DNA from: Branchiostoma floridae
Lineage: Eukaryota; Chordata; Leptocardii; Amphioxiformes; Branchiostomatidae
Length of the DNA stretch: 64,000 bases
Reading direction: 5' to 3'
NCBI RefSeq assembly: GCF_000003815.2
Contig: NC_049983.1
Coordinates: forward strand, 17,204,746-17,268,745
The notes beneath the pieces are model-generated. The model did not search any database and was not told the origin of the DNA. It saw nothing but the letters and a program-made list of their open reading frames with translations. The position numbers and the translations under genes were made by a program. Positions 3,926 to 55,973 of the stretch are shown here, in pieces. Position 1 is the first letter of the stretch; every line of letters starts with the position of its first letter.

Positions 3926-3986
3926 TCAATGGGTTCATGCTTCTATTCGTGATAGGCTACCATAATTCTTAATCATGTAACTTTAA

Positions 3987-4790
3987 AGGACAGGCTTAGT
4001 TGCTCATGTATTGATGGTGTTCAGCACCAAGGACAGAATTAGTTGTTCACGTATTGAATGTGTTCAGCACAAAGGACAGAGTTAGTTGTTCATGTATTGG
4101 TGGTGTTCAGCACCAAGGACAGACTTAGTTGTTCATGTATTGATGGTGTTCAGCACCAATGACAGGCTTAGTTGCTCATGTATTGAATGTGTTCAGTACC
4201 AAGGACAAACTTAGTTGCTCATGTATTGAATGTGTTCAGCACAAAGTACAGACTTAGTTGCTCATGTATTGAATGTGGTCAGCACAAAGGACAGACTTAG
4301 TTGTTTATATATCGGTGGTGTTCAGCACAAAGGACAAACTTAGTTGCTCATGTATTGAATGTGTTCAGCACAAAGGACAGGCTTAGTTGTTTATATATTG
4401 GTGGTGGTCAGCACAAAGGACAGACCTTAGTGCTCATGTATTGAATGTGTTCAGTACAAAGGACAGACTTAGTTGTTCATATATTGGTGGTGTTCAGCAC
4501 CAAGGACAGACTTAGTTGTTCATGTATTGAATGTGTTCAGCACAAAGGACAGGCTTAGTTGCTTATATATTGGTGGTGTTCAGCACAAAGGACAGACTTA
4601 GTTGTTTATATATTGTTGGTGTTCAGCACCAAGGACAGACTTAGTTGCTCATGTATTGAATGTGTTCAGCACAAAGGGCAGACTTAGTTGTTCATATATT
4701 GGTGGTGTTCAGCACCAAGGACAGACTTAGTTGTACATGTATTGGTGGTGTTCAGCACCAAGGACAGGCTTAGTTGCTCATGTATTGAAA
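3987..4790. repeat. 43-base minisatellite overlapping the MMP-like gene's stop
   Basis: There are about 18 units with consensus ggacagacttagttg(c/t)tcatgtattg followed by (a/g)(a/g)tgtgttcagcac(a/c)aa. Two unit types alternate, with cat-gtattgaatgtg versus tat-attggtggtg. The right-most unit runs into the coding end of the MMP-like gene, where its reverse complement supplies the last codons and the stop. Confidence 0.85.
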
Positions 4791-7700
4791 GCAACCCATC
4801 CAGTATTTAGCCACGCTGCGCGGGTAGGGTGGGTTGGCCCCTTCGGTCACAGCGCCGCCGTTGTCCAGCCTCCAGTACTGATCGCCCCTGAAGATGTAGT
4901 CCAAGCCGTTCGTCCACTGGATAGCCGCGTCCAGGCGGTCCGGGAAGTCCCTCCACAAACTGAGGGCCTTCGGGTAGCCGCGGTCTAGTGTCCTGGGGCC
5001 CTCGGTGTACCGCCAGTACTGGTCACCTATAGTGGAGGGGAGAGAAGGATCTCTTTAATACACAACCACCCATTTTCCTATACGTGTCAGAAACGTTCCC
5101 TAGATGAATCAACACTCACCCGTGAATAAGTAAGCCCTGGCTCTGCCCTGAAACTCTCCAAAGTACAGCGCAGCGTCAATGTTGGGTACGGTACGCCAGA
5201 GGTAGATGGAGAGGGGGTAGTCCCTATCAGGACTGGCGCCGTCAAACCGCCAGTATCGGCCACCCTGCGTGGACAAGGCAAGTCAACCTTAAAGGCTCTG
5301 TTTTCCATCATTTCACCAGGCCCTTTATTTAATCAATATCCAAGCAAATGCATGATTGCGTTTTTTTTTTCAGCACATGTATACGTATGACACTGAGGAG
5401 ATGCTATTAGTGTTGAACAGTGGGTCCAAAATCATATCCAGTTGCTTGAGTAACAATAAATGCTTTTGGCATATCTTATTACTTAATTAATGTCTAACAT
5501 TCATCGACGTTACAAATGTATACCTTGACAAACAACAGGAGCTAATTGACTCATTCTTATCAACATTGTCTTAGCTTTGCCTTACCTTGTTTTCTATTAC
5601 ACTTCTAAAGTCGTTTTCAGCTCTTTTGTATTCATAGTTTTGATATGAAAGACCAATTTTCCTAGATCAGGCACTGACGAAAGATAGTGGATACTCTACT
5701 TGAACCGTCTGACCGTTTCTGAAATCATATAGTTACTTGATTAACTGCTTTTGGGCGTATCTTCACAAACAATTTTGTTCAACGTTCCCCACCAACCGCA
5801 CAGGAGCAAACCCGCTTAGTTTTACCTTGAAGAAGTAAGTCTTCCTGTTGGGCGGCCAGTACAGCGCGGCGTCTATCCCGCCACCCGCTTATTTTTACCT
5901 TGAAGAAGTAAATCTTCCTGTTTGGCGGCCAATACATCGCGGCGCCTATCCCGCCACCCGCTTAGTTTTACCTTGAAGAAGTAAGTCTTCCTGTTGGGCG
6001 GCCAGTACAGCGCGGCGTCTATCCGCCACCCGCTTAATCAGTTTTACCTTGAAGAAGTAAGTCTTCCTGTTGGGCGGCCAGTACAGCGCGGCGTCTATCC
6101 CGCCACCCGCTTAGTTTTACCTTGAAGAAGTAAGTCTTCCTGTTGGGCGGCCAGTACAGCGCGGCGTCTATCCCGCCACCCGCTTAGTTTTACCTTGAAG
6201 AAGTAAGTCTTCCTGTTGGGCGGCCAGTACAGCGCGGCGTCTATCCCGCCACCCGCTTAGTTTTACCTTGAAGAAGTAAGTCTTCCTGTTGGGCGGCCAG
6301 TACAGCGCGGCGTCTATCCCGCCACCCGCTTAGTTTTACCTTGAAGAAGTAAGTCTTCCTGTTGGGCGGCCAGTACAGCGCGGCGCCTATCCCGCCACCC
6401 GCTTAGTTTTACCTTGAAGAAATAAGTCTTCCTGTTGGGCGGCCAGTACAGCGCGGCGTCTATCCCGCCACCCGCTTAGTTTTACCTTGAAGAAGTAAGT
6501 CTTCCTGTTGGGCGGCCAGTACAGCGCGGCGCCTATCCCGCCACCCGCTTAGTTTTACCTTGAAGAAGTAAGTCTTCCTGTTGGGCGGCCAGTACAGCGC
6601 GGCGTCTATCCGCCACCCGCTTAATTAGTTTTACCTTGAAGAAGTAAGTCTTCCTGTTGGGCGGCAAGTGCAGCGCGGCGTCTATCCCGCCACCCGCTAA
6701 ATTAGTTTTACCTTGAAGAAGTAAGTCTTCCTGTTGGGCGGCAAGTACAGCGCGGCGTCTATCCCGCCACCCGCTTAATCAGTTTTACCTTGAAGAAGTA
6801 AGTCTTCCTGTTGGGCGGCCAGTACAGCGCGGCGTCTATCCCGCCACCCGCTTAATCAGTTTTACCTTGAAGAAGTAAGTCTTCCTGTTGGGCGGCCAGT
6901 ACAGCGCGGCGTCTATCCCGCCACCCGCTTAATCAGTTTTACCTTGAAGAAGTAAGTCTTCCTGTTGGGCGGCAAGTACAGCGCGGCGTCTATCCCGCCA
7001 CCCGCTTAATCAGTTTTACCTTGAAGAAGTAAGTCTTCCTGTTGGGCGGCAAGTACAGCGCGGCGTCTATCCCGCCACCCGCTTAATCAGTTTTACCTTG
7101 AAGAAGTAAGTCTTCCTGTTGGGCGGCCAGTACAGCGCGGCGTCTATCCCGCCACCCGCTTAGTTTTACCTTGAAGAAGTAAGTCTTCCTGTTGGGCGGC
7201 CAGTACAGCGCGGCGTCTATCCCGCCACCCGCTTAGTTTTACCTTGAAGAAGTAAGTCTTCCTGTTGGGCGGCCAGTACAGCGCGGCGTCTATCCCGCCA
7301 CCCGCTTAGTTTTACCTTGAAGAAGTAAGTCTTCCTGTTGGGCGGCCAGTACAGCGCGGCGTCTATCCCGCCACCCGCTTAGTTTTACCTTGAAGAAGTA
7401 AGTCTTCCTGTTGGGCGGCCAGTACAGCGCGGCGTCTATCCCGTCAGCAGGCAGGCCTTCCCACACGTCAGCGATCAGCTGGGGGTACCCGGGGTCCGCG
7501 CCTGCGCTGTTCAGTCTCCAGAAGTAACGGCCTGTCACGCAGAGTAGGAATAAGTGTGGCAATAAAAACTACAAATGTATTGCCATGGCGCGACGGGTTA
7601 GTATCTATGATTGTTGTTGTAGATACGTTCTATCCTTTCGCATGGCTATATGTACAAAAACTGTTTTATGCGATGGATGTTTGTGGGGCATTGGCCACTG

Positions 7701-10700
7701 CTGTTAACAAGAAATGTGATCTGTTCTGATGAGCGACAGACATGCCTACCACCAAATTTGGAAATTCTTGTCAAACGGACACACACTATACTACTAGGCT
7801 AGCCCCTGGGTGTCGCCCAAAATAAAATGAAAAACATGAATTTTGTTCCTTCAAGGCGTTAAACTGACCAAAGATAGAAGGTACTTTTTCGGTCTAGTTT
7901 AGCTTATTGAAAGCCGGTCTTCCATTGGTGGTGACAGAGAGGACGTCAGTGCTGTGTCCGTTTTGTAGAACCAATTCTTAAATGTAATGATCTAGTTGAC
8001 TACCGGCAGTTAGAACCATTTCCAAAACATGCAAGTCTGATGTAGCCTCTACCAGGCTCCACATAAATGATGAGAAAATTGTTGACATTGGCCAAATAGA
8101 CAGATAACATGCCAGAGCAGTTAGCCGGACTAAACTTAAGTTCGATGACAAAAGAGCCGGAATTTGAGTATCCTTACTTTTATTTACATCTATTTCTTAC
8201 ATCAAAAAGTGGTCACAAAATGAATAGGATGCAGTGTGTAGCGGCATCACCTCTGTATCTGTATCTGTATTTGTATTTATATCTATATAGCCGGTATAAC
8301 CGCCGTTAGGCGTAACACACCAGCTTTGCAGTCACGCGGAGCGGGAGCAGCTGGTTATATTACACTGAACGATCCGTCACACCTACCTTTTGCACATCTG
8401 TCTGCAAGCGTTCTTTAAAGCTATCCAGAGAAGATGATGCCCCTACTGTACTTGGTGATAACAAATTCCACTCTACGATAGTACGATACCTCTGAAGGCG
8501 TACACGGACCCGTTGGCCAGACGAGTGAAGGCATCAAACTTCTCCCCGCTGCACGTTACCGCGTCCAGATCACCGCCAGGGGGACAGAGCGGAGAGGGTG
8601 GCCGAGGGTTCGGCAGCGGAGGAGATGGCCGAGGCCTAGGGTTCGGCAGCGGAGGGGGTGGACGGAAGGTCGGCAGCGGAGGGTGTCCTGTAGACAAGGG
8701 CGGAACATCATGGTTGAAAGCGTTGTCCTTGTTATTTTTTTTTAAACAAGGAATGAAAAACTATTGAATCAGTGATCACGAGCACAAAGTTTATTACATA
8801 CTATTGACGTCACCAATTCACGTCGACAGGCGACACCTTGTGAGTAATTAATCGGTCTCTACTGCGTATATGCTTGTCTATTAACCATGAAAATAGACTA
8901 TCATAATCTTCATACAGATCTTATGTGATCTAATGTCATATTGAGTGTATGTCGTTGAGTGTGCGCTTTTGTCTACTAGCATCTGTTCGACTTTACAGAA
9001 ACGTAGAAAACGCGGCAAAGCAAAAAATGAAAACCGGCCGGAGTCACGCGTCAGCTGCTTTGAGATTATGTGTCACAGTTTTAAACCGACCGTAGAGCCT
9101 CCGGATGCCCCGGATGTCGTCACCATGGAGGCGGAAGTTGGGCCGGTACCGGTAGAAGGGCGCCATTACTGCAGTGTTTCCCCGGGAGTGCCCGAGACCC
9201 AGGACGTGCCCCAACTGGTGAGCCGCTACCTGGCGCAGAGCAACGCCTCCGGGAAGATCTGGAGGAGGGATGGAGGTATAAAAACGTGGGAAAAGATAGA
9301 CTGGGAAAGAAAAGAGAACACAGAAAACAAAAACAACGAAGAAATCACGTCTTTAGGTAATATACATAGCTGTATGCACTGTTGGACTCGGTATACGAGT
9401 CCTATTGAGAGAGGTTCTAGATCAATCAAGGTCCTTGGTTCAAGCTAAGTTTCACGGTGGACAATAAGTATAGAATTTTTCATTGGGAAGTTTTTCTCGT
9501 AGCCTTACCGTTTCTCTTGTTGATGGTCCAGGTCTCCGACTCGTCGAAGTGTACATCGCCGCCGATGCCGTTGCCAGGGCCGTACGCATGCGCCAGGGTC
9601 TTCCCAGGCCCGTCGAATGAGTGGCCGTCCCCGTGGAGGAACGAGACGAAGCTGATCTCAATGTCGGAAGGAGTGGAACCCTTCAATCTCCGGAACCGCA
9701 GCGAAGTGTAAGCCGACCAAATCTACAGGTAGGCAGAAACCCCCGTGAGCAGTTTTATCAGATTGGCACGTCACTAGCTGAATAAAGAGACATTTTTTCG
9801 CGACCCTTGCTGTATTTCCGTCGACTTTTCGGTGACCGTTTGTCACCTTCCTCAGGGCAATTCTGACTGGTTTACATTACACTGCATGCACGGAAAGCAA
9901 ACTATGGTGAAAACATTGTATGAACACAGCATTGTAAACATCGCGCATCACTGCTTGTGAAGTGATAACTATTCTAAAGCATAATAAGGTGCCATGTCGT
10001 TGTTGCTGCAAAAATGCAACATCGCAAAAAATGAATCTTCTCAAAACCAAAAAGAATGCAGTACAACAAGGACGAGTCTACAAGCAAACATTACAGGCCA
10101 AATCTCTCCAATCTAGAGCACAAATGAGCTTACTTTTTGAGCTCTCCGTATCTCCCTTCGCACGCTAGCCGGCGGCAGGTCCGGGGTGTAGTTCACTATA
10201 CGGTAGGTGAGGTTGTTCTTTCTCCACCGCCGCCCGAGCTGGAGCAGGTAGGAGGCCAGCTTCTCACCCGTGTCGGCAACCCCGCATCTAGGCATGCGCA
10301 TCATCTCCGTCGTCTTGTCATCAAGTTCACCTGGAGACAGAAGCAATGAAGGAAAGTTAGTGGTCCAGAAGAAGGCAGGGTCTACTACTTATATGCTAAA
10401 GCAAGCCAGCACCTCAGAGCATTGGTCATGAAAAGACATAAAAAAACAGGCTAGAGCCTCCTTCGGTTAGTATTGACCATGTTACGTTTGAAATAAAAAC
10501 AACACTAAATGTATTTAGCCCGAAAGTTGTTAGCCCGAAAGGTACTTATTTAAGGACGTTAACTGATTAAGGACAAAAAATAAGGTCAATCAGGAAAGCC
10601 TCGAATCATACAATTTTTTTCATGATGAACATGCCATTTCATGTGGCTCCTAGCTCCAGTAAGGAGTGAAATGTGCAAACCGAAACAGGCACCCCCCCCC

Positions 10701-11661
10701 CCCCCCCCTCATTGAGGAGTATCTATGATTACCCTACCTTGCTATTGCGGACATGTAGCATGCCCACACCACGCCCTTAAATCTCCTCACCTGTTTGATG
10801 TATACCGGCGAACCTTTGAAAGTTTGTGATGGCTCTGCGCAAGGCGATCCGGTCATAGTGCATGCCTAGCTCGAACCAGCCGAACCGCATCAGGTACAAC
10901 TGGAGGATTTCATAACAGCTCATAAAACTTTTCTACTAGGACGGCACTCTCGCAGCGACCTAAAATTTGACAGATCGCTCAACGAATTCTGTAGAAAAGA
11001 AACGAATCTTTTTACACTTTGTGTGTTTTGTTGTCTTCTTAGTGACACTTTTACGTTTTGTATGACATACTAGTACCCAGTGTGAAGGCGAAAATTACAC
11101 ATATCCTTTATAGGTCGCAGTAAGAGCGCAGCGCGATCGCCGTCTAGTGAAATGGGGCCTTACACATGGCGACAAAAATCTTTGTCTGTAGTAAAGCCAC
11201 TCTGACTTGTTTATATTTGGATGACAACCGCGAGAGTATCTCTTTTCGTCCGTTTCAAAAACAACTTTGTGTCCATACTGTAAATCATACAAAGAAGCTG
11301 CAAAATGAACAAATATAACGTTATGCCGTAAATTACAAAAGTATCGAAAAATAGATACTAATGCAAACGATGTCTCTTTTCCTGTTGTAAAATGCACTGA
11401 TCTTTTTGTGAGCTTACCCCTTATACAAGATTTATTTCAAGCCCTCATGAGCGAAGTTTTCCAAAGTCTCACAAGAAAATGTGAAAGAAACATCAAGAAT
11501 TGTTTGGCAATACCATACACTTGTAAAACGTTCTGACACTTACATTTGATAATTAAGGAAACTTTTTGCTCCAGTTTAGCACGGTCGCATAAAACTAAGG
11601 CGGTCAAAGCTCATATGATTAAATCAGCGTGGGAATCGATATATATATATATATGTATGTA

Positions 11662-11713
<52 letters not shown>

Positions 11714-12258
11714 GAACGGGTTTGACGGATGTGAAGACTATATTGTTTTAGTAGCTTATGTTCTCCTGTTGACCATGGCCAACTTCAAACAAGGGATGAT
11801 CACAAGTGCTGGGCGTAAACAAACACTTGATATGAACATTGTCATGACTCCTGCGTCTCAATAGTTTAGGCAAACACTCGTAATGACGAGAATGCTTGAA
11901 GGGGACACACCGTGAGTGATAGGGCATTGTTCGGGCCATTTAGGATGATATTGTTCTAAGAGGAAGAGTATGGAAGCTAAACACACTTCACTACCAGTGG
12001 ACTAGCCTGCTGTAGTGACCTACTGTTTGTGTGACCACAGGGCGTAAAACGGAGATAGGTGCCGGGCCTACGCATCNNNNNNNNNNNNNNNNNNNNNNNN
12101 NNNNNNNNNNNNNNNNNNNNNNNNNNNNNNNNNNNNNNNNNNNNNNNNNNNNNNNNNNNNNNNNNNNNNNNNNNNNATTTGCACGGCCTGGCCTGGCTCG
12201 GGGCCGGCAAAGCACACAGGAACACCGCCAGGAGGGGTAGCACAAGTAACCCGCGCAT
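4770..12258 (-). CDS. Matrix-metalloproteinase-like protein with Glu-to-Gln active site
   Basis: Exons in gene order: 12258-12177 (runs into the gap), 10899-10791, 10330-10134, 9722-9509, 9258-9091, 8687-8490, 7531-7389, 5264-5120 and 5026-4770. All visible junctions keep frame, giving about 476 residues after the gap. Exon 1 encodes a signal peptide ([20 protein letters not shown]). The prodomain has [16 protein letters not shown] and the cysteine switch PRCGVAD. The catalytic domain has the structural zinc/calcium segment ([26 protein letters not shown]), the zinc helix [11 protein letters not shown] and the Met-turn VMAPF. The three zinc histidines are present, but the catalytic Glu is Gln (codon CAG at 9215-9217). 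A proline-rich hinge with a PLPNPRP repeat follows, then four hemopexin blades framed by Cys (VTCSG, WMGC). There is no furin site before the catalytic domain and no membrane anchor. By family it should be secreted and bind matrix or TIMP-like partners; by sequence it is probably proteolytically inactive. One or more early prodomain exons may lie in the gap. The start of the second exon is the least certain boundary. Confidence 0.9.
5412..5770. repeat. Dispersed repeat in MMP-like intron
   Basis: It contains aaaatcatatccagttgcttgag and cactgacgaaagatagtggat...gaccgtttctgaaatcatat. Related copies lie at about 38805-38910 and 45535-45745, in different orientations. No coding capacity was seen. 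Confidence 0.5.
5815..7388. repeat. Minisatellite made of MMP exon end plus splice donor, about 21 copies
   Basis: Units of about 72-78 bases each contain, on the minus strand, the last 55 or so bases of the hemopexin exon that ends at 7389 (encoding [18 protein letters not shown]), the same donor (AAG then gtaaaact) and about 20 intronic bases (aagcgggtgg). I count 21 copies plus the genuine exon end. The copies are nearly identical. Variants include tta inserts before gcgggtgg, single-base changes such as ggcaagtac, and loss of one C. No unit has an evident acceptor of its own. Confidence 0.92.
7563..8489. other. MMP-like intron between hinge and first full hemopexin exon
   Basis: It holds a dispersed-repeat copy (8255-8395) and otherwise unrecognised sequence. 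Short ORFs here have no recognisable domain. Confidence 0.4.
8250..8395. repeat. Dispersed repeat with tatctg microsatellite, copy 1
   Basis: A microsatellite of gtatctgtat type is followed by tatatagccggtataaccgc, then cacaccagctttgc, gcagctggttatattacac and cgtcacac. A close copy is at 47440-47570 in the same orientation. The end-microsatellite suggests a non-LTR retrotransposon 3' end or a SINE. Confidence 0.6.
11640..11710. repeat. AT-dinucleotide microsatellite
   Basis: This is a run of alternating a/t about 70 bases long with a few g interruptions, in a non-coding region between the second MMP-like exon and the assembly gap. Confidence 0.95.
12077..12176. other. Assembly gap, 100 N
   Basis: There are exactly 100 N, a conventional placeholder for a gap of unknown size. 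It follows the signal-peptide exon of the MMP-like gene at once, so the start of the prodomain is missing. Confidence 0.99.
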
Positions 12259-21373: not shown

Positions 21374-21653
21374 GAACCCTGAAGACTTTCAGACCAGAGA
21401 GAAGTGACTGGTACATGTGTCCATTAGGACTCAACTGGTCTCAACTGAGAAGTAGGAAAAAGACTGGAAAATTTGTGAAGATTGAAAAATTCGAAAACAA
21501 ATTCTAAATTTGAAAATTTTGAAATTTGAAGAACCTTTCTCCATGGTTAGAAATCTTGACTTTTTGATGTCATTAGAGAGAAATGAAAAATCAAGCAAGT
21601 GGGAATGATTGTGGAGAGCTTGTAGAAAAGCAGCTGTAAAACTTTTTTCAAGA

Positions 21654-23135
21654 ATGTCCCGACCAGGTACTGCCCGCCCGGTCTCTGCGCGGTTTGGTCC
21701 TGGCCGACTTGCCGCCGTGCCACAACTGCCGGACTTCGTTCTCACAGAGCGGCTGGGCAGCGGGACATATGCTACCGTCTTCAAGGCATACAGTAGAAGC
21801 AAGCGACGCCAGGTGGTCGCCATCAAGTGCATCCAGAAGTCGAACTTGAACAAAGCCGCCACCGACAACCTGCTGACGGAGATTGAGATCCTGAAAAACG
21901 TTCGGCACCCGCACATTGTCGAACTGAAGGACTTCCAGTGGGACCGCGACAACATCTACCTGATCATGGAGTACTGTAGCGGTGGCGATCTCTCGCGTTT
22001 TATTCACAGTAAGAGAACGTTGCCAGAGTACCTGGCGAAGAGATTCGGCCAGCAGTTGGCGATGGCTTTACAGTTTCTCCGGTCAAAGAACATCTCCCAC
22101 ATGGACCTCAAACCGCAGAACATCCTTCTGTCATCACGAGACAACCCGGTGCTGAAGTTGGCGGACTTTGGGTTTGCTCAGTACATGGGTGACGAGGCAC
22201 GGATGACTTCGTTACGAGGGAGTCCACTCTACATGGCACCAGAAATGTTCTGTAACACAAAGTACGATGCACGAGTGGACCTCTGGTCGCTAGGGGTGAT
22301 CTTGTACGAAGCGTTGTTCGGCAGGGCGCCGTTCTACTCTCGGTCGTACGCCGAACTGGAGGTCAAAATCCGCGACACCAAACCCATCGAGATTCCTCAG
22401 GGGATACAGATTTCTGGGAAATGTCGTGACCTGCTCCTAGGGCTTTTGCAGAGAGACCCAAACCAGAGGATAACGTTTGAGGAGTTCTTCAACCACCCGT
22501 TCATCGACTTGGAACACGTGCCGTCTCACGACTCGCTAGACAAAGCCGTCTCCATAGTGACGGAGGCGGTGAGTTACGACGAAGAGGGAAATCACGCGGA
22601 AGCGGTGAAGAAGTACTGCGACGCTCTGGAGTACTTTGTACCCGCCGTCCACTACGAGACCGACGAGTCGAAAAAGGACGTTCTCAGAAAGAGAGTGATG
22701 GAGTACATGGCTCGAGCGGAGGAACTCAAGTCCATAATCAAACCTGCAGAAGAACCCACCAATGAGGAAGAAGACGAACAAGAGGCGACGCCAAAGGAAG
22801 CGGAGACGCTGTGGGAAATGGCGGGGTCTTGCACGCGTCTACATCAAGCGCTGAAGCGGGCCGCCATCGCGGAACTGAGGGCGGAACACGAGCTTTACGA
22901 CAGCGCCCTTGAGGAGTACAAACATGCCCTGGAGGAACTACTTTCTCTCCTGGAGGCAGAACCAAAAGGCAGGCGGAGGGATCTGCTGCACATGGAGGTG
23001 GAGAAGCTGTTGAATCACGCACAGGCGGTGAAGGACTACAAGAACATGATGAAGCGAGACGCCCAGAAGCTGTCCGATTCTGGGGAGCGATATAACGATT
23101 CCAGAGATGACATGAACAGATGTGTTGTTCAGTGA
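21654..23135 (+). CDS. ULK3: Serine/threonine kinase ULK3, intronless
   Basis: One uninterrupted exon of 493 codons. The start at 21654 (MSRPGTARP) is preferred over an in-frame ATG 45 bases upstream because a pyrimidine tract and aag precede it and the conserved protein begins just after. The kinase domain (about residues 35-295) has GSGTYATVF (P-loop), VVAIKCIQK (lysine), a catalytic loop SHMDLKPQN, ADFGFAQ and MAPEMF. His-Met-Asp instead of His-Arg-Asp matches the non-Arg form (HLD) of vertebrate ULK3. Two MIT-like helical regions follow (about 300-385 and 410-485), each with the YDEEGNHAEAVKKYCDALEY or LYDSALEEYKHALEEL type of helix, separated by an acidic linker. In the family, ULK3 acts in Hedgehog/Gli signalling, autophagy and the ESCRT-III abscission checkpoint through its MIT domains. 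An AATAAA lies about 23992. The coding region lacks introns, unlike other genes here, which suggests a retrocopy origin that stayed functional. Confidence 0.95.
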   Translation: MSRPGTARPVSARFGPGRLAAVPQLPDFVLTERLGSGTYATVFKAYSRSKRRQVVAIKCIQKSNLNKAATDNLLTEIEILKNVRHPHIVELKDFQWDRDNIYLIMEYCSGGDLSRFIHSKRTLPEYLAKRFGQQLAMALQFLRSKNISHMDLKPQNILLSSRDNPVLKLADFGFAQYMGDEARMTSLRGSPLYMAPEMFCNTKYDARVDLWSLGVILYEALFGRAPFYSRSYAELEVKIRDTKPIEIPQGIQISGKCRDLLLGLLQRDPNQRITFEEFFNHPFIDLEHVPSHDSLDKAVSIVTEAVSYDEEGNHAEAVKKYCDALEYFVPAVHYETDESKKDVLRKRVMEYMARAEELKSIIKPAEEPTNEEEDEQEATPKEAETLWEMAGSCTRLHQALKRAAIAELRAEHELYDSALEEYKHALEELLSLLEAEPKGRRRDLLHMEVEKLLNHAQAVKDYKNMMKRDAQKLSDSGERYNDSRDDMNRCVVQ

Positions 23136-50105: not shown

Positions 50106-53100
50106 TCATGTACTGTCTGGTTGTTGACTTGGTGTAATACTTTGAGTCAATCTTGTCATCTCTCTCAAGACAGATTGAAACGCTGTTATCCTCTTTGGTT
50201 CAAACTCTAGTATGGCCAAACCTTCAAGTGAGGTAACTCTGCTTAGAGCAACATATACCATTCCAGGGCTAAATACACTTGGTCCTATATCAAGTACAAC
50301 TTTTGACAATGATAGGCCTTGTACTTTGTGGCAAGTTGATGCGTAAGAAAGTTGGAGTGGAAACTGTGTCCGGGTGAAAACAGTGCTGTAGCGTGCAAAG
50401 AATTTTGCTGTGATTGCTGAGATAAGAATAGCATTGTTCTTGGTAGGGTCTTGTAACATTTGACCAACCCTGGGATTGTCAAACTTGACGTAGACTCCTG
50501 TAACAGTTGGCACATTTGAGTTGTATTGTTGGTCATTTTCAGAGTCTTGTGATAGGAAGTCCTCCACTGTACCCTGTGCACCATTTACAAGTCCATCCTC
50601 GCTCAGAATGTTTCTTAGTAGCATGACTCGACAACCTTTAGCAAGGCGAAGTTCTTTCTCAAGTCCTGCTGTTTCACTGGTGTCTTCTGATATTAGATCT
50701 TGTTCAGGTATGTTGTTTGCATTGACAGGACCATCCGTCATTTCATCTCTTGCTGTCAGTACATGTATCTGAGTATCTGTTTGAGCATATAGTCTTTGCA
50801 GTTCTTGCATGTTATGCTCTATGGCCTTTTTCCTTGTTGGGAAAATGTGAAGAGCCATGGAAAAGGCAGATTGTTCAATCTCTGCTCTTCTTTTGATGCA
50901 AGTTGAAAGGAGGGCAATATCTGCATTGGTTGGCAGTCCAACTCGTACTCTGTTAAGGAGTTCTGTAAACTCTTTGTCAGTTTTTTGTCTGTGATTGACA
51001 GTTAAGAATAATGGCTTGAATAGTGATCTCCACAAGTGAGTGAAAGGTTCTTGTTGGTTTAGTGAATCTTCGAATATGAATTTTCCGAAGACCGGTTTGA
51101 GCTGGTAGAAATCACCAAAAGCTATGATGTTGAGGTTCCCAAAGTAGCTGTGTTGGTCAGCTGTAGTGTCTTTGATCTCTGATAGGCGGAGGTGAATGTG
51201 TTCCAGTCTGACATTGCTGATCATGCTTATTTCATCAATGAAAACTGTGTGTACATTGCTGAATTTGCGTCGAAGTTGTGACAGTTTCTCAGCACTGAGT
51301 GGTAGGTACTGGGTTTTACCTCTTCGGCTATGGTCAACAGGCAGTGATAGAGCTGAATGTACTGTGAAGCCACCAATGTTGTAGGCAGCGACACCTGTTG
51401 GTGCAGTGAGCATTACAGGAGATGTTGGGCAGTTTGATGTACGGATCAAGTACTCATTCAAAACTTTTATTAGAAAGCTTTTGCCACAGCCTGCTCCTCC
51501 CGTCACGAAGAGTCTCAACGGTTGTGGTTTTGGAGAGGCTCGGTCTGCTTGGTGTCTGTTCATCAGTAAAAAGTGTTCTTTCACTGTGTTAAACACGTGC
51601 TGTTGGTCATGTGACATGTTATTGAGTGCGTCAAAGAATGCATCATCAGCCATTGTGTAGCGAGATACAGTATTCCATGCAAGTGAATCATCATGTAACA
51701 TTGTGAGGTTTTCTGAAGATATCATGTCAATACTATTAGTTTGAGCAACAGATGCTGCTGCTTGTTCTGCATTTTGTGCTGTCCATTGTGCATCAAGATG
51801 AAGTCCTTCAGTGTTAAAGTCATGTTCAGTTTGCAACTGTTGGTGAGTCACATTGGGGGCAAGTGTGGTAGCAATAGATGTTAGATCATCTGACAGCAGG
51901 CGTACTTGCATGATAGCTTGTTCTATATCTGATGTGAAATGAAAATGCTGTGCAAGACTATTGTCAAATTGATCCTTCTTAGCAGAGAAAGCATCTTGAG
52001 CACAAGCATATTCAGCAAGGATGTCGTTTTCATTTCTCCATGGGTAGTACATGTACAAGAGACCGTAGAAATAGTCATCTCCATTTCCAGAGGATAGTTT
52101 TGAACTTCTAACACATGCAAGCTTTTGACGTTTCTTTATCCATCTGTCACATTGTTGTAACTTGATAGTTTGAGAAGCTTCTGATGGCTCAATGGATGTA
52201 ATGGAGTATGTTGCGGCAAAGGTGAATAATGACATTGTATCCCAGGGATCACCATGTGGTCTCATTGCATAGTATTGAGCTGTTCCCTTTGTGAAAATGT
52301 CAGATGATGAATCATCAAGTTTGTCGAGGTCATCTTTGGGTTTGAGCAGACGCATTCTTTTGTGTGGTGGTTTGGCATTGATTGACACTGTTTGTCTCGA
52401 TGATTGTATGAGTTGCAGGTTTGCAAGTCTGTAGCCAACTTCTTGTCCTCCAACTAGGCGGTGGCTGAGTACAGTGTTACCAATCTGGGCTAAACGTGCT
52501 CTTTTTGTACTGTTAGGTGGTAGATGTGACAGACCAGCATAGATAGCTGTTTGAAGATTATCAGGCTCAGCTTTTGAGATGTACATACATGCATAGTAAG
52601 CAGCACCATACTTTGACCCAACCATTTGTATGTCCATGTTAGACTGCATATGTAAGAGCAATGTAGGGCTATATGCATTGATCCAGATGTCCTGTTGTGT
52701 TCGTTTTGTAACATAAAATTGTGCGCTGCGATTAGCATCAACATCTAGCCTGAGTCGTGTGGTCTGTGACACTTCTCGAGGGAAGTGAAATCGACACTTT
52801 GTTCGTCCCTTCTCACATGTTCTTGTGTGATGATGCCGTTGGTATTTGGACACTAGTTCATGTAAGAGAGAGTTTTCATCATCAGGTAGCTGTGTGGACA
52901 CATATTTGTCAATGAATTCAGGTGCTCTTTGCCTTCCTTCTATGGTATCAAGGTTGGGGGCATTCTCAACCCAGAACATACAGTGCAAGTGAGGAGAACC
53001 TCTTAACTGAAATTCGACACGAATCCAGTGGTCCGTAATCACACCAATAGGATGTTGCGGACTGTTCAATATGAAGCGTAGCAGTGCATCAGTGCGCCGG

Positions 53101-55973
53101 TTAAAGTGTATGGCACACATGACAGGGTCTGATCTCATCAGGTTCCATTTGTCTTGCTGAGGTAATGCTTTAGCTTCCTCATATGTCAGATCAGGATTGA
53201 GAGACATAAACAGCTCTGGCCAGTTCAAGTCATTTGCTGACACAGTGAGAAACCAAGTTGGTGGGCCAATTGTGTTGATTTTTGCTAGTAGGTTAAGCAG
53301 TTGGTCCTTAAAGTATGCTGCTGTTCCACGGATGTTCTTCATGAAAGTGTATGATGTGCTTTCAACATCTTCATGAATATTCTGACGCAGATCACCTGCT
53401 GTCAGAGGTTGTGGTGAAGATTGTGAGGTATCATTACCTTGCTTTTGCATTCTACACACAATTGATATCTGACTGTACAGTTTCTTGATTTCATATGAGT
53501 TCAAAGCAAAGAAGAGCCAAGGGATATTTTTCCTCCAGATATCATTGATATTAAGTAGTCGTGACTGGAAGTACTGTAAGTCTGTCATAGGTATTTCTCT
53601 CATCTGTTGGAAACCATTACAACCATATGGATACAGCTGAGGGAAGCAGTGTTCCTCGAGGTCTTTCTCCTTAAAAATACTTTGTGGTGCTGATGTTTCA
53701 CGAGGGAGAGATACTGATGGTACAGTGTCTGTTGCACTCTGCAACAGAGATTGTAAGGGAATATTTGGATTGATGTAGTTGCATGGAAAAGCAGACAGCT
53801 CTGTGACATTAGAAGATCCATTTGATTGATGGATTTCATCATAGTTGGCAAGATTTGAATGGAATTCGCATGATGTTTCCTTCCAATCTTCAAAGGAAGC
53901 TATGTTTACATCTGAGTAAAGACTATTGTTAGTGATCAGCCATGTTAGAGCTTCATGCATGTGAGTATATCGCACAATGTATTGTGGATCATTTCTTTGT
54001 GTTCTATCGTTAGTTTCGGAGGGATGTACTATTACGATTCCTGATGTGTTTTGACAGCGTGGTAAGAGATTGCAAGATGTTTCAATGTTGGTAGAGAAAC
54101 TTATGGCTTGGCCTTGTTCACCATATTGTCCACCTGGTAGGATAACAAGCTTTACAAATGTGTACTTCAGGCTGACAAGTCTTGTCTCCATTCTAGTAAG
54201 CTGTTTTATACATGATGGGATATCACCTGGGTCCATATTGTTAGTCCAAGCATTGGGTATTGGGTTTTGTCTTTCAATAGCAGTTGAACACTTTGAACAC
54301 AGATGGCATTGATCAGAGTTATTTTGATGTGCGTACTTCATAGTATCTGTTACAGAAATGTTGCAGGCTCTTACTTGCTCATGAAATAAGAATTTTCTAC
54401 ACAGAATGCAATAGTATTTTGGTTGCTGCTGTATGTAGCAATGGAATGCTGGGAACTCTGATTTGTACCCTTCGTTAGTATGCTCAGTGTGACCTGTGCT
54501 ATGTTCTTTCACATACTTGTTAGCAGCTGTATTCCTTTGGTAGTCACGGCACTTCTTTACACGTTCAGCTCTATGCTGAGAAGTTTCATTAGCTGCTTTG
54601 TTTCTGTAGTTTAATCTTTGTTTTGCAAGTCTTTTTAACCTTTCGTCAGATGTTTCATTTTGTTTCCTGGCTTTGTTACATTCTCTTCGCTTAGCAAGTC
54701 TGTCTGCTTTTTTATCAGCTGTCTCTCTTTGTTTCTCGGCTTTGTAGCATTCTCTTTGCTTAGCAAGTATGTCTGCTTTTGTATCAGCTGTCTCTCTTTG
54801 TTTCCTGGCTTTGTAGCATTCTCTTCGCTTAGCAAGTCTGTCTGCTTTTTTATCAGCTGTCTCTCTTTCTTTCCTGGCTTTGTAGCATTCTCTCCGCTTA
54901 GCAAGTCTGTCTGCTTTTTTATCAGTTGTTTGTGGTTTCTCAGTTTTAAAATGTGTGCATTGCTTTGCAATTCCGTCAGCATTTTGTTCAGCTGTTTCTG
55001 TTGCTATGTTGGGTGTGTACTGTGTTCTTTGGTTTGCATAGCTGTCTGCATTTTGGTTAGTTGTTTGCTTTGTGTCACTTACTTGTTGATACATGAACAT
55101 GTCTTGTTTCTTTGCACTCAATTTGTGTTTCGCAGAATTATGTTGACCCTTTGAAGTCCTTGTATAAAAAGAAGATAGGTTTAGAGGTTGTAAGGTGCCT
55201 TCAATCAGTACCGATTTAGATGGTGGTACTAATGAGTTAACTTTCTGAGCCTGTAGAAAGCTGTGTGATCCCATTGGCTCATTGTTGTCAGTCAGTGTCA
55301 AATAGCGTACATCCAGTTCCGTAACATCACTTGTCAATTCAATGTTTTCTGATTGCACTGCTACAAGCTCAAAGTTGCATGTTAGACTTGGTTTCCAATT
55401 AAGTGTTTGTAAGAATTGACAAAGGTTAGTAATCGTCATGTGCCTACTTAAAGCAGATGAGCCATTATCATCAGGCAGTGCTGTTGTTTGACTTCTGGCA
55501 TGTGAATCATAAACAAAATAATTGTTACCAGTATGCAGTAAGGCTACTGTGGAACCACTTGATCCAGATGCTGTTATGAGCAAACATGTGTCAGATATAG
55601 CAAATGCTTCTTCTAGGGCTGTCTGCAATGTGTAGTAGGGATAATATGCTTGTCTGCTAAACACGTCTCCAGTATATCGCTCTTTGATTGTTATGTGCAA
55701 AGTGTTGTTTCCAATCTGCCAATAATTGGGCAGATCATCAACTGATAGGTAAGATACAGTAGGCGGTAGAGATGGTTTTATGCGGTTGTAAAGTGCATCA
55801 CCTTCAAACAGTACAGTATCAAGATCTGTGGATGTCCAGGAAGTTGCTTGTTTGTTAGCAGAGTGATAAAGGATAGCTATCAAAGAATTTGCAGTACATT
55901 GTTTACCTCTACTAGTTTCATTGAAAATGTTGTTGCCTTGGTGGTAGTTTCCTGACAGTGTAGCTTCACACAT
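50106..55973 (-). CDS. Helitron-like Rep/PIF1-helicase with N-terminal cysteine-protease domain
   Basis: An intact ORF of 1955 codons in one exon. The N-terminus has a papain-like arrangement, GKQCTANSL (Cys26) and YDSH (His158), like the OTU or herpes-tegument-type peptidases seen in Helentrons and related elements. Residues of about 335-470 are charged 23-residue repeats (ETADKKADRLAKRRECYKAR), likely a coiled coil. CxxC pairs follow (about 520-575). The Helitron Rep signature is HLH in GSPHLHCMFWV (about 990) with a Tyr-rich YYACMYISK (about 1120). The C-terminal third is a PIF1-type SF1B helicase: GGAGCGKSFLIK (Walker A, about 1493), FIDEISMI (Walker B, about 1580), then TVNHRQK, TCHKVQGLSL (about 1885) and VALSRV. 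Such proteins drive rolling-circle transposition. No frameshift or stop is present, which suggests a young or active copy. Element ends are not resolved, so it could be Helitron or Helentron type. Confidence 0.92.
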   Translation of the reverse strand: MCEATLSGNYHQGNNIFNETSRGKQCTANSLIAILYHSANKQATSWTSTDLDTVLFEGDALYNRIKPSLPPTVSYLSVDDLPNYWQIGNNTLHITIKERYTGDVFSRQAYYPYYTLQTALEEAFAISDTCLLITASGSSGSTVALLHTGNNYFVYDSHARSQTTALPDDNGSSALSRHMTITNLCQFLQTLNWKPSLTCNFELVAVQSENIELTSDVTELDVRYLTLTDNNEPMGSHSFLQAQKVNSLVPPSKSVLIEGTLQPLNLSSFYTRTSKGQHNSAKHKLSAKKQDMFMYQQVSDTKQTTNQNADSYANQRTQYTPNIATETAEQNADGIAKQCTHFKTEKPQTTDKKADRLAKRRECYKARKERETADKKADRLAKRRECYKARKQRETADTKADILAKQRECYKAEKQRETADKKADRLAKRRECNKARKQNETSDERLKRLAKQRLNYRNKAANETSQHRAERVKKCRDYQRNTAANKYVKEHSTGHTEHTNEGYKSEFPAFHCYIQQQPKYYCILCRKFLFHEQVRACNISVTDTMKYAHQNNSDQCHLCSKCSTAIERQNPIPNAWTNNMDPGDIPSCIKQLTRMETRLVSLKYTFVKLVILPGGQYGEQGQAISFSTNIETSCNLLPRCQNTSGIVIVHPSETNDRTQRNDPQYIVRYTHMHEALTWLITNNSLYSDVNIASFEDWKETSCEFHSNLANYDEIHQSNGSSNVTELSAFPCNYINPNIPLQSLLQSATDTVPSVSLPRETSAPQSIFKEKDLEEHCFPQLYPYGCNGFQQMREIPMTDLQYFQSRLLNINDIWRKNIPWLFFALNSYEIKKLYSQISIVCRMQKQGNDTSQSSPQPLTAGDLRQNIHEDVESTSYTFMKNIRGTAAYFKDQLLNLLAKINTIGPPTWFLTVSANDLNWPELFMSLNPDLTYEEAKALPQQDKWNLMRSDPVMCAIHFNRRTDALLRFILNSPQHPIGVITDHWIRVEFQLRGSPHLHCMFWVENAPNLDTIEGRQRAPEFIDKYVSTQLPDDENSLLHELVSKYQRHHHTRTCEKGRTKCRFHFPREVSQTTRLRLDVDANRSAQFYVTKRTQQDIWINAYSPTLLLHMQSNMDIQMVGSKYGAAYYACMYISKAEPDNLQTAIYAGLSHLPPNSTKRARLAQIGNTVLSHRLVGGQEVGYRLANLQLIQSSRQTVSINAKPPHKRMRLLKPKDDLDKLDDSSSDIFTKGTAQYYAMRPHGDPWDTMSLFTFAATYSITSIEPSEASQTIKLQQCDRWIKKRQKLACVRSSKLSSGNGDDYFYGLLYMYYPWRNENDILAEYACAQDAFSAKKDQFDNSLAQHFHFTSDIEQAIMQVRLLSDDLTSIATTLAPNVTHQQLQTEHDFNTEGLHLDAQWTAQNAEQAAASVAQTNSIDMISSENLTMLHDDSLAWNTVSRYTMADDAFFDALNNMSHDQQHVFNTVKEHFLLMNRHQADRASPKPQPLRLFVTGGAGCGKSFLIKVLNEYLIRTSNCPTSPVMLTAPTGVAAYNIGGFTVHSALSLPVDHSRRGKTQYLPLSAEKLSQLRRKFSNVHTVFIDEISMISNVRLEHIHLRLSEIKDTTADQHSYFGNLNIIAFGDFYQLKPVFGKFIFEDSLNQQEPFTHLWRSLFKPLFLTVNHRQKTDKEFTELLNRVRVGLPTNADIALLSTCIKRRAEIEQSAFSMALHIFPTRKKAIEHNMQELQRLYAQTDTQIHVLTARDEMTDGPVNANNIPEQDLISEDTSETAGLEKELRLAKGCRVMLLRNILSEDGLVNGAQGTVEDFLSQDSENDQQYNSNVPTVTGVYVKFDNPRVGQMLQDPTKNNAILISAITAKFFARYSTVFTRTQFPLQLSYASTCHKVQGLSLSKVVLDIGPSVFSPGMVYVALSRVTSLEGLAILEFEPKRITAFQSVLREMTRLTQSITPSQQPDST
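54590..54960 (-). repeat. 69-base coding tandem repeat in the helicase ORF
   Basis: About five in-frame units (aagtctgtctgctttttt and agctgtctctctttgtttcc type on the plus strand) encode the 23-residue charged repeat. Unit ends vary, but frame is kept throughout. Confidence 0.9.

Follow-up and report, generated by a model that had tools for sequence, protein, structure and literature searches.

A lancelet matrix metalloproteinase gene with glutamine at the position of the catalytic glutamate

A matrix metalloproteinase (MMP) gene whose zinc-binding helix carries glutamine instead of the catalytic glutamate was found on the minus strand of the window, the 64,000-nucleotide stretch of DNA analyzed here (C5:17204746-17268745 of its own assembly). 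As the initial annotation, which gave no strand, had proposed, the codon at this position is CAG (9217-9215, within the exon at 9258-9091), so that the glutamate of HExxH, which marks an active MMP enzyme, is absent. Among the residues of catalysis, zinc and calcium binding, the cysteine switch and the Met-turn, no other is lost. In the best explanation of the sequence, the gene (hereafter the Gln gene) would be a duplicated lancelet MMP that diverged and turned into a pseudoprotease.

Gene model and domain content

The Gln gene has at least nine exons and runs from about 12258 to 4770 of the window. The following features were annotated.

Exon 1 (part), 12177..12258, minus strand: signal peptide; a similar candidate exon (MRGLL...) lies upstream of the C11 paralogue.
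Exon 2, 10791..10899, minus strand: prodomain, 8 codons shorter than in the C11 paralogue.
Exon 3, 10134..10330, minus strand: cysteine switch PRCGVAD and start of the catalytic domain.
Exon 4, 9509..9722, minus strand: structural zinc and calcium segment.
Exon 5, 9091..9258, minus strand: zinc-binding helix and Met-turn; length 168 nt, entered and left in phase 1.
Catalytic-position codon, 9215..9217, minus strand: CAG (Gln); GAG in the nearest paralogue.
Exon 6, 8490..8687, minus strand: proline-rich hinge and start of hemopexin blade 1.
Exon 7, 7389..7531, minus strand: hemopexin blade 2; 140 of 143 nt as in the paralogue (probable gene conversion).
Tandem array, 5810..7443, minus strand: begins within exon 7 and lies in intron 7; about 22 units of 73-77 bp.
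Exon 8, 5120..5264, minus strand: hemopexin blade 3.
Exon 9, 4770..5026, minus strand: hemopexin blade 4 and final Cys; stop TAA at 4772-4770, with the last codons inside a 43-bp minisatellite.

Exons 2-9 comprise 1431 nt and encode 476 residues, with no internal stops in the spliced translation. Their phases are 0-1, 1-0, 0-1, 1-1, 1-1, 1-0, 0-1 and 1-stop, where the entry phase of exon 2 was read from its own frame because exon 1 cannot be followed to its end. Every donor seen is GT (seven) and every acceptor AG (eight). Exon 1 is truncated by 100 Ns at 12077-12176, which hide its donor; the exon is backed by the similar candidate signal-peptide exon of the C11 paralogue, there reading MRGLLVVLLLALCLSVPG. 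The earlier statement that all exon phases close thus holds for exons 2-9, which are in frame with GT-AG boundaries, but does not extend to the exon 1 donor. Frame disruptions elsewhere in the gene, named in the same annotation as the sign of a decaying pseudogene, were not found across exons 2-9. The first residue of the exon 5 peptide straddles a splice junction, and the stop sequence of exon 9 recurs in the adjoining repeat, the right end of the exon being 4770. Since exon 5 has 168 nt and phase 1 at both ends, its skipping would preserve the frame and yield a protein lacking the zinc helix.

The matrixin profile PF00413 matches residues 71-230 over its full length (profile positions 1-159 of 159) with E=1.2e-53 and 181.7 bits against a curated cut-off of 24. 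Pfam also gave the hemopexin profile PF00045 in four stretches (E=1.1e-45) and a peptidoglycan-binding-like match in the prodomain (E=3e-05), and the closest solved structures by sequence are MMPs. The cysteine switch PRCGVAD is present in exon 3, and all three zinc histidines (HxxGHxxGxxH) and the Met-turn AVMAPFY were read from the translation. The structural-zinc and calcium segment is kept as HGDG...FDGPG...LAHAYGPG..., with residue roles that we assume from what is generally known of MMPs. The translation and the Pfam matches together agree with the initial annotation that the three histidines, the switch, this segment, the Met-turn and the four blades are intact. Of the 32 near-invariant columns of exons 4-5, 30 are kept; apart from the catalytic Glu, the only one changed is a Gln in the last helix. 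The alignment behind this count had one partly contaminated row (C11_6.855, with its neighbour's exon 4) and one intron artefact at the Glu column.

Two further possibilities were rejected. A wrong frame or splice does not account for the glutamine, as the codon lies mid-exon, the sequence on either side aligns to MMPs all along and the junctions are identical in the paralogue. RNA editing back to Glu was dismissed from the genetic code, in which neither A-to-I nor C-to-U editing of CAG yields a Glu codon.

Relatives of the gene and their divergence

The assembly searched comprises 513 Mb in 431 contigs. Matches to the matrixin family profile, which also occur in six of 14 prokaryote controls, were found for 57 exons and were grouped into 31 MMP-like loci, a number to be read as a lower bound. 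Among the 30 MMP genes with a readable active site, 29 have Glu at the catalytic position and one, the Gln gene alone, has Gln. The 31st locus (C14_9.3) lacks a readable catalytic exon, lying in a stretch (L037) with 488 Ns, and the N shown for it does not stand for a residue of the active site. An apparent second Gln in gene C4_19.9 proved to be an artefact of reading into the intron, as the spliced codons are CAT GAG joined across the junction to ATC GGT CAC and thus encode Glu. A search of the assembly with the exon 5 peptide (E up to 10) returned 29 places, with 100% identity at its own site only and 75% at the next best, and no second copy of exon 5, with either Glu or Gln, was found in it. 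Three near-identical MMP genes were also observed at about 13, 57 and 91 kb of another contig (G000:C144; 255,966 bases), close in sequence to a gene at C2:25.82 Mb.

The nearest paralogue lies on contig C11 (G000:C11, about 6842-6850 kb) and reads HEFGH. A tree of exons 4-5 joins the two genes as sisters (support 0.98); it included 27 of the 31 loci (C14_9.3, C4_11.57, C4_11.56 and C4_19.9 being dropped) and a corrected row for C11_6.855. They have in common the domain order, the exon junctions (compared for exons 2-5 and 7-9), the unusual exon 5 donor GTCGGT and a similar candidate signal-peptide exon, as well as the switch PRCG, the three zinc histidines, the structural zinc and calcium residues, the Met-turn and the hemopexin blades. 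The Gln gene differs in having Gln for the catalytic Glu, a prodomain shorter by 8 codons and six extra C-terminal residues that fall in the minisatellite. Exon 6 of the paralogue is interrupted by 100 Ns. The weak exon 5 donor was considered as a sign of decay and rejected, the HEFGH paralogue having the identical donor.

The codons around the catalytic position are CAC CAG TTG GGG CAC GTC in the Gln gene and CAT GAG TTC GGC CAC GCC in the paralogue. With GAG against CAG, one base separates the genes at the catalytic codon, in accordance with the single-base change described earlier. Since the neighbouring codons differ from the paralogue too, the stretch is not a mis-joined piece of it. The exons of the two genes differ by 12-21% in DNA (79-88% identity) with the exception of exon 7, in which 140 of 143 nt (98%) are identical to G000:C11:6843509-6843651 and synonymous differences are absent. 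This excess of identity over the other compared exons suggests an exon-sized gene conversion of exon 7 between C5 and C11.

Pairwise dN/dS against the paralogue, an estimate that the initial annotation had called for, ranges from 0.28 to 0.45 as an average along the lineages: 0.43 (NG86), 0.28 (YN00), 0.45 (LWL85) and 0.29 (ML) over 355 codons, with exons 6 and 7 excluded. By part of the gene, with YN00 values for some partitions only, the ratio is lowest in the active-site exon (0.10-0.25) and reaches 0.43-0.62 in blades 3-4 and 0.34-0.67 in the prodomain. Branch values were obtained with our own script for a three-branch codon model, with the neighbouring C11 gene as outgroup; they are rough because the outgroup branch was saturated and ran to its upper bound. 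On the branch of the Gln gene, omega for exons 3-5 is 0.20 (likelihood-ratio test against 1, p=0.006, with this saturated outgroup), the same as that of the paralogue (p=0.94). For exons 8-9, the hemopexin part, omega is 0.48 and a value of 1 is not rejected (p=0.73), and for exons 3-5 and 8-9 combined it is 0.22 (p=0.006). The absence of stop and splice lesions, counting stops and splice dinucleotides only, bounds any wholly neutral period at about 0.04 substitutions per site (95%). The earlier description of the gene as maintained is thus partly supported, by the lack of such lesions and by an average purifying selection against the paralogue that may have acted before the Gln change.

The catalytic part of the Gln gene has evolved faster than that of its sister. 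The branch length for exons 4-5 is 0.34 in the Gln gene against 0.08 in the paralogue, and among 200 bootstrap trees 190 retained the pair, of which 189 gave the Gln gene the longer branch; when the C11 neighbour was left out, 193 of 200 did so, again with 189. Relative-rate counts of changes in the Gln gene and in the paralogue, taken as a check for relaxed selection, were 18 and 6 when gene C served as outgroup (p=0.023), and 17 and 11 when 24 of the 31 loci did (p=0.34); for synonymous changes they were 9 and 4 (p=0.27), a difference in the same direction. No such excess was observed in exons 8-9, with 12 changes in the Gln gene and 10 in the paralogue. The faster catalytic part would fit relaxed constraint as well as it would fit a new function.

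Possible function of the product and alternative explanations

The same exchange has been made in MMP-9 by design. Passages of PMC7771667 report that MMP-9 E402Q is well expressed, whereas three His-to-Ala mutants are not, that MMP-3 processes it and that TIMP-1 shifts it in gel filtration; its prodomain-free form is stated there, from another paper, to be without proteolytic activity. According to the same passages the engineered inhibitor M91005 binds active MMP-9 and not E402Q, so Gln does not leave every interaction of the cleft intact. In excerpts of PMC4224431, MMP-9 E402Q binds and antagonizes TIMP-1, and treated rats had lower TIMP-1 protein. The PDB chain 1eak, an MMP-2, reads VAAHQFGH and, like MMP-9 E402Q, carries the same substitution as the Gln gene in the same helix with the histidines unchanged. 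MMP-9 E402Q is laboratory-made, and so presumably is the MMP-2 with Gln, whereas the Gln gene was found in a genome assembly. That an otherwise intact MMP has lost its catalytic base is thus supported from three sides, namely the gene's own sequence, the 29 of 30 genes that keep Glu and the published Gln mutants of MMP-9 and MMP-2. By sequence and by this analogy the product is very probably non-proteolytic.

Pseudoproteases are already well known among ADAMs and other families. Parts of PMC3650047 state that the Glu of HExxH in zincin-like proteins is most often replaced by Gln, with HQxxH in some ADAMs, and that CLCA zincins carry a natural substitution at HExxH. Eight human ADAMs (ADAM2, 7, 11, 18, 22, 23, 29 and 32) are given as proteinase-inactive in a portion of PMC4885070, and these resemble the Gln gene as metzincins whose catalysis was lost in evolution, HQxxH being among the substituted ADAM forms (PMC3650047, same parts). 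ADAMs nevertheless constitute another metzincin family with disintegrin and cysteine-rich domains. The CLCA zincins differ from the Gln gene in both family and domain order. Among the matches listed in the open-licence literature on amphioxus or inactive MMPs, no natural MMP with this single loss was found. One MMP phylogeny study removed sequences without the canonical motif, according to a section of its text (PMC12587646), and would thus miss MMPs of this kind.

TIMP-family exons gave three matches over the cut-off in the same assembly, on contigs C328 and C5, and none in 14 control genomes; amphioxus TIMPs are described in passages of PMC2825198. From the published mutants, the product of the Gln gene would be expected to fold, bind zinc and remain latent through its cysteine switch; another protease could unmask it, whereas it could neither unmask itself nor cleave. 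Once unmasked, the zinc cleft might, together with the hemopexin propeller, still bind TIMPs and MMP substrates, and as a TIMP sink or substrate shield the protein might shift the activity of the true MMPs. By analogy the likeliest form would be a secreted, latent zinc-binding protein that, once unmasked by another protease, binds inhibitor or substrate without cutting. A role as inhibitor decoy appears plausible because engineered MMP-9 E402Q serves as a TIMP-1 antagonist and TIMP-family exons occur in the assembly.

These parts of the reading differ in strength. On its sequence, the chances are evenly balanced that the gene is kept as a functional pseudoprotease. Tentatively, and a little short of even, the product may be a functional, non-cutting binding protein, as both the sequence and the published analogues suggest. 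A TIMP sink in particular is rather doubtful by analogy, and more doubtful still is a natural, selected pseudo-MMP, reached in lancelets through a single base change and comparable to MMP-9 E402Q as a TIMP antagonist, which would raise true MMP activity by removing the inhibitor.

Foremost among the alternatives is a recent loss, in which Gln would either segregate as a null allele or be the initial lesion of a gene that is entering decay and has no function of its own. We consider this a serious but minority possibility. Selection before the Gln change would leave the identical dN/dS signal, and a neutral period within the bound given above could leave no stop or splice lesion; the faster catalytic part and the minisatellites in intron 7 and at the gene end also point this way. 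Set against these are the intactness of the remaining features, an omega below 1 in the catalytic part (with the saturated outgroup) and the weak exon 5 donor, which its occurrence in the HEFGH paralogue removes as a sign of decay. It is also conceivable, if improbable, that the hemopexin propeller is the working part, binding to the cell surface or matrix with the metalloproteinase domain as a mere carrier, a reading that overlaps the non-cutting binding protein preferred here in being a function without cutting. The presence of four blades and the lack of excess changes in exons 8-9 (12 against 10 in the paralogue) agree with it, whereas constraint there is not stronger than in the catalytic part (omega of 0.48 against 0.20).

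A base-call or consensus error with GAG as the true codon would require one base only, G to C, and a 100-N gap does lie within the same gene, but consensus errors in assemblies are rare per base and the codons beside CAG, differing likewise from the paralogue, speak against a mis-joined stretch; such an error is very unlikely. A slow but real protease, in which Gln permits weak catalysis or activity or pH dependence is retuned rather than abolished, is to be taken as highly improbable. In its favour, Cha and Auld in 1997, a work listed among the references of PMC3406945, mutated this residue in human matrilysin; the Gln mutant reportedly kept a small fraction of activity. The prodomain-free MMP-9 E402Q, stated to be without proteolytic activity in the passages of PMC7771667, argues the other way.

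Returning to the preferred reading of a non-cutting binding protein, if the Gln gene is fixed and expressed, it would form with its HEFGH sister a natural pair for the roles that MMPs play without cutting, and this pair would bear on whether MMPs are really regulated by titration of their inhibitors.

Repeats and other features of the window

Each unit of the tandem array at 5810-7443 consists of the last 53-58 bases of exon 7 together with its 5' splice site. The exact sequence TTCTTCAAG followed directly by GTAAAAC occurs at 21 places in the array, that of exon 7 itself included, and all 21 of the partial exon 7 copies are at the locus of the Gln gene. By its sequence, the intron 7 array is possibly a natural row of decoy donor sites. 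The 43-bp minisatellite (window 3985-4788, about 19 copies) reaches into the coding sequence at its 3' end; the last codons and the stop of the Gln gene come from it, whereas the C11 paralogue stops directly after the final Cys.

An uninterrupted open reading frame of 1955 codons was found on the minus strand at 50109-55973. Its matches to Helitron_like_N and PIF1 helicase indicate that it is probably a Helitron transposon; near its start there is a Herpes_teg_N match (E=5e-07) barely above the cut-off. A single open frame on the plus strand at 21609-23132 encodes a protein kinase domain and, after it, two MIT stretches and is, we presume, ULK3-like. Finally, two similar EGF-like exon pieces were noted by eye on the plus strand at about 790-1560.
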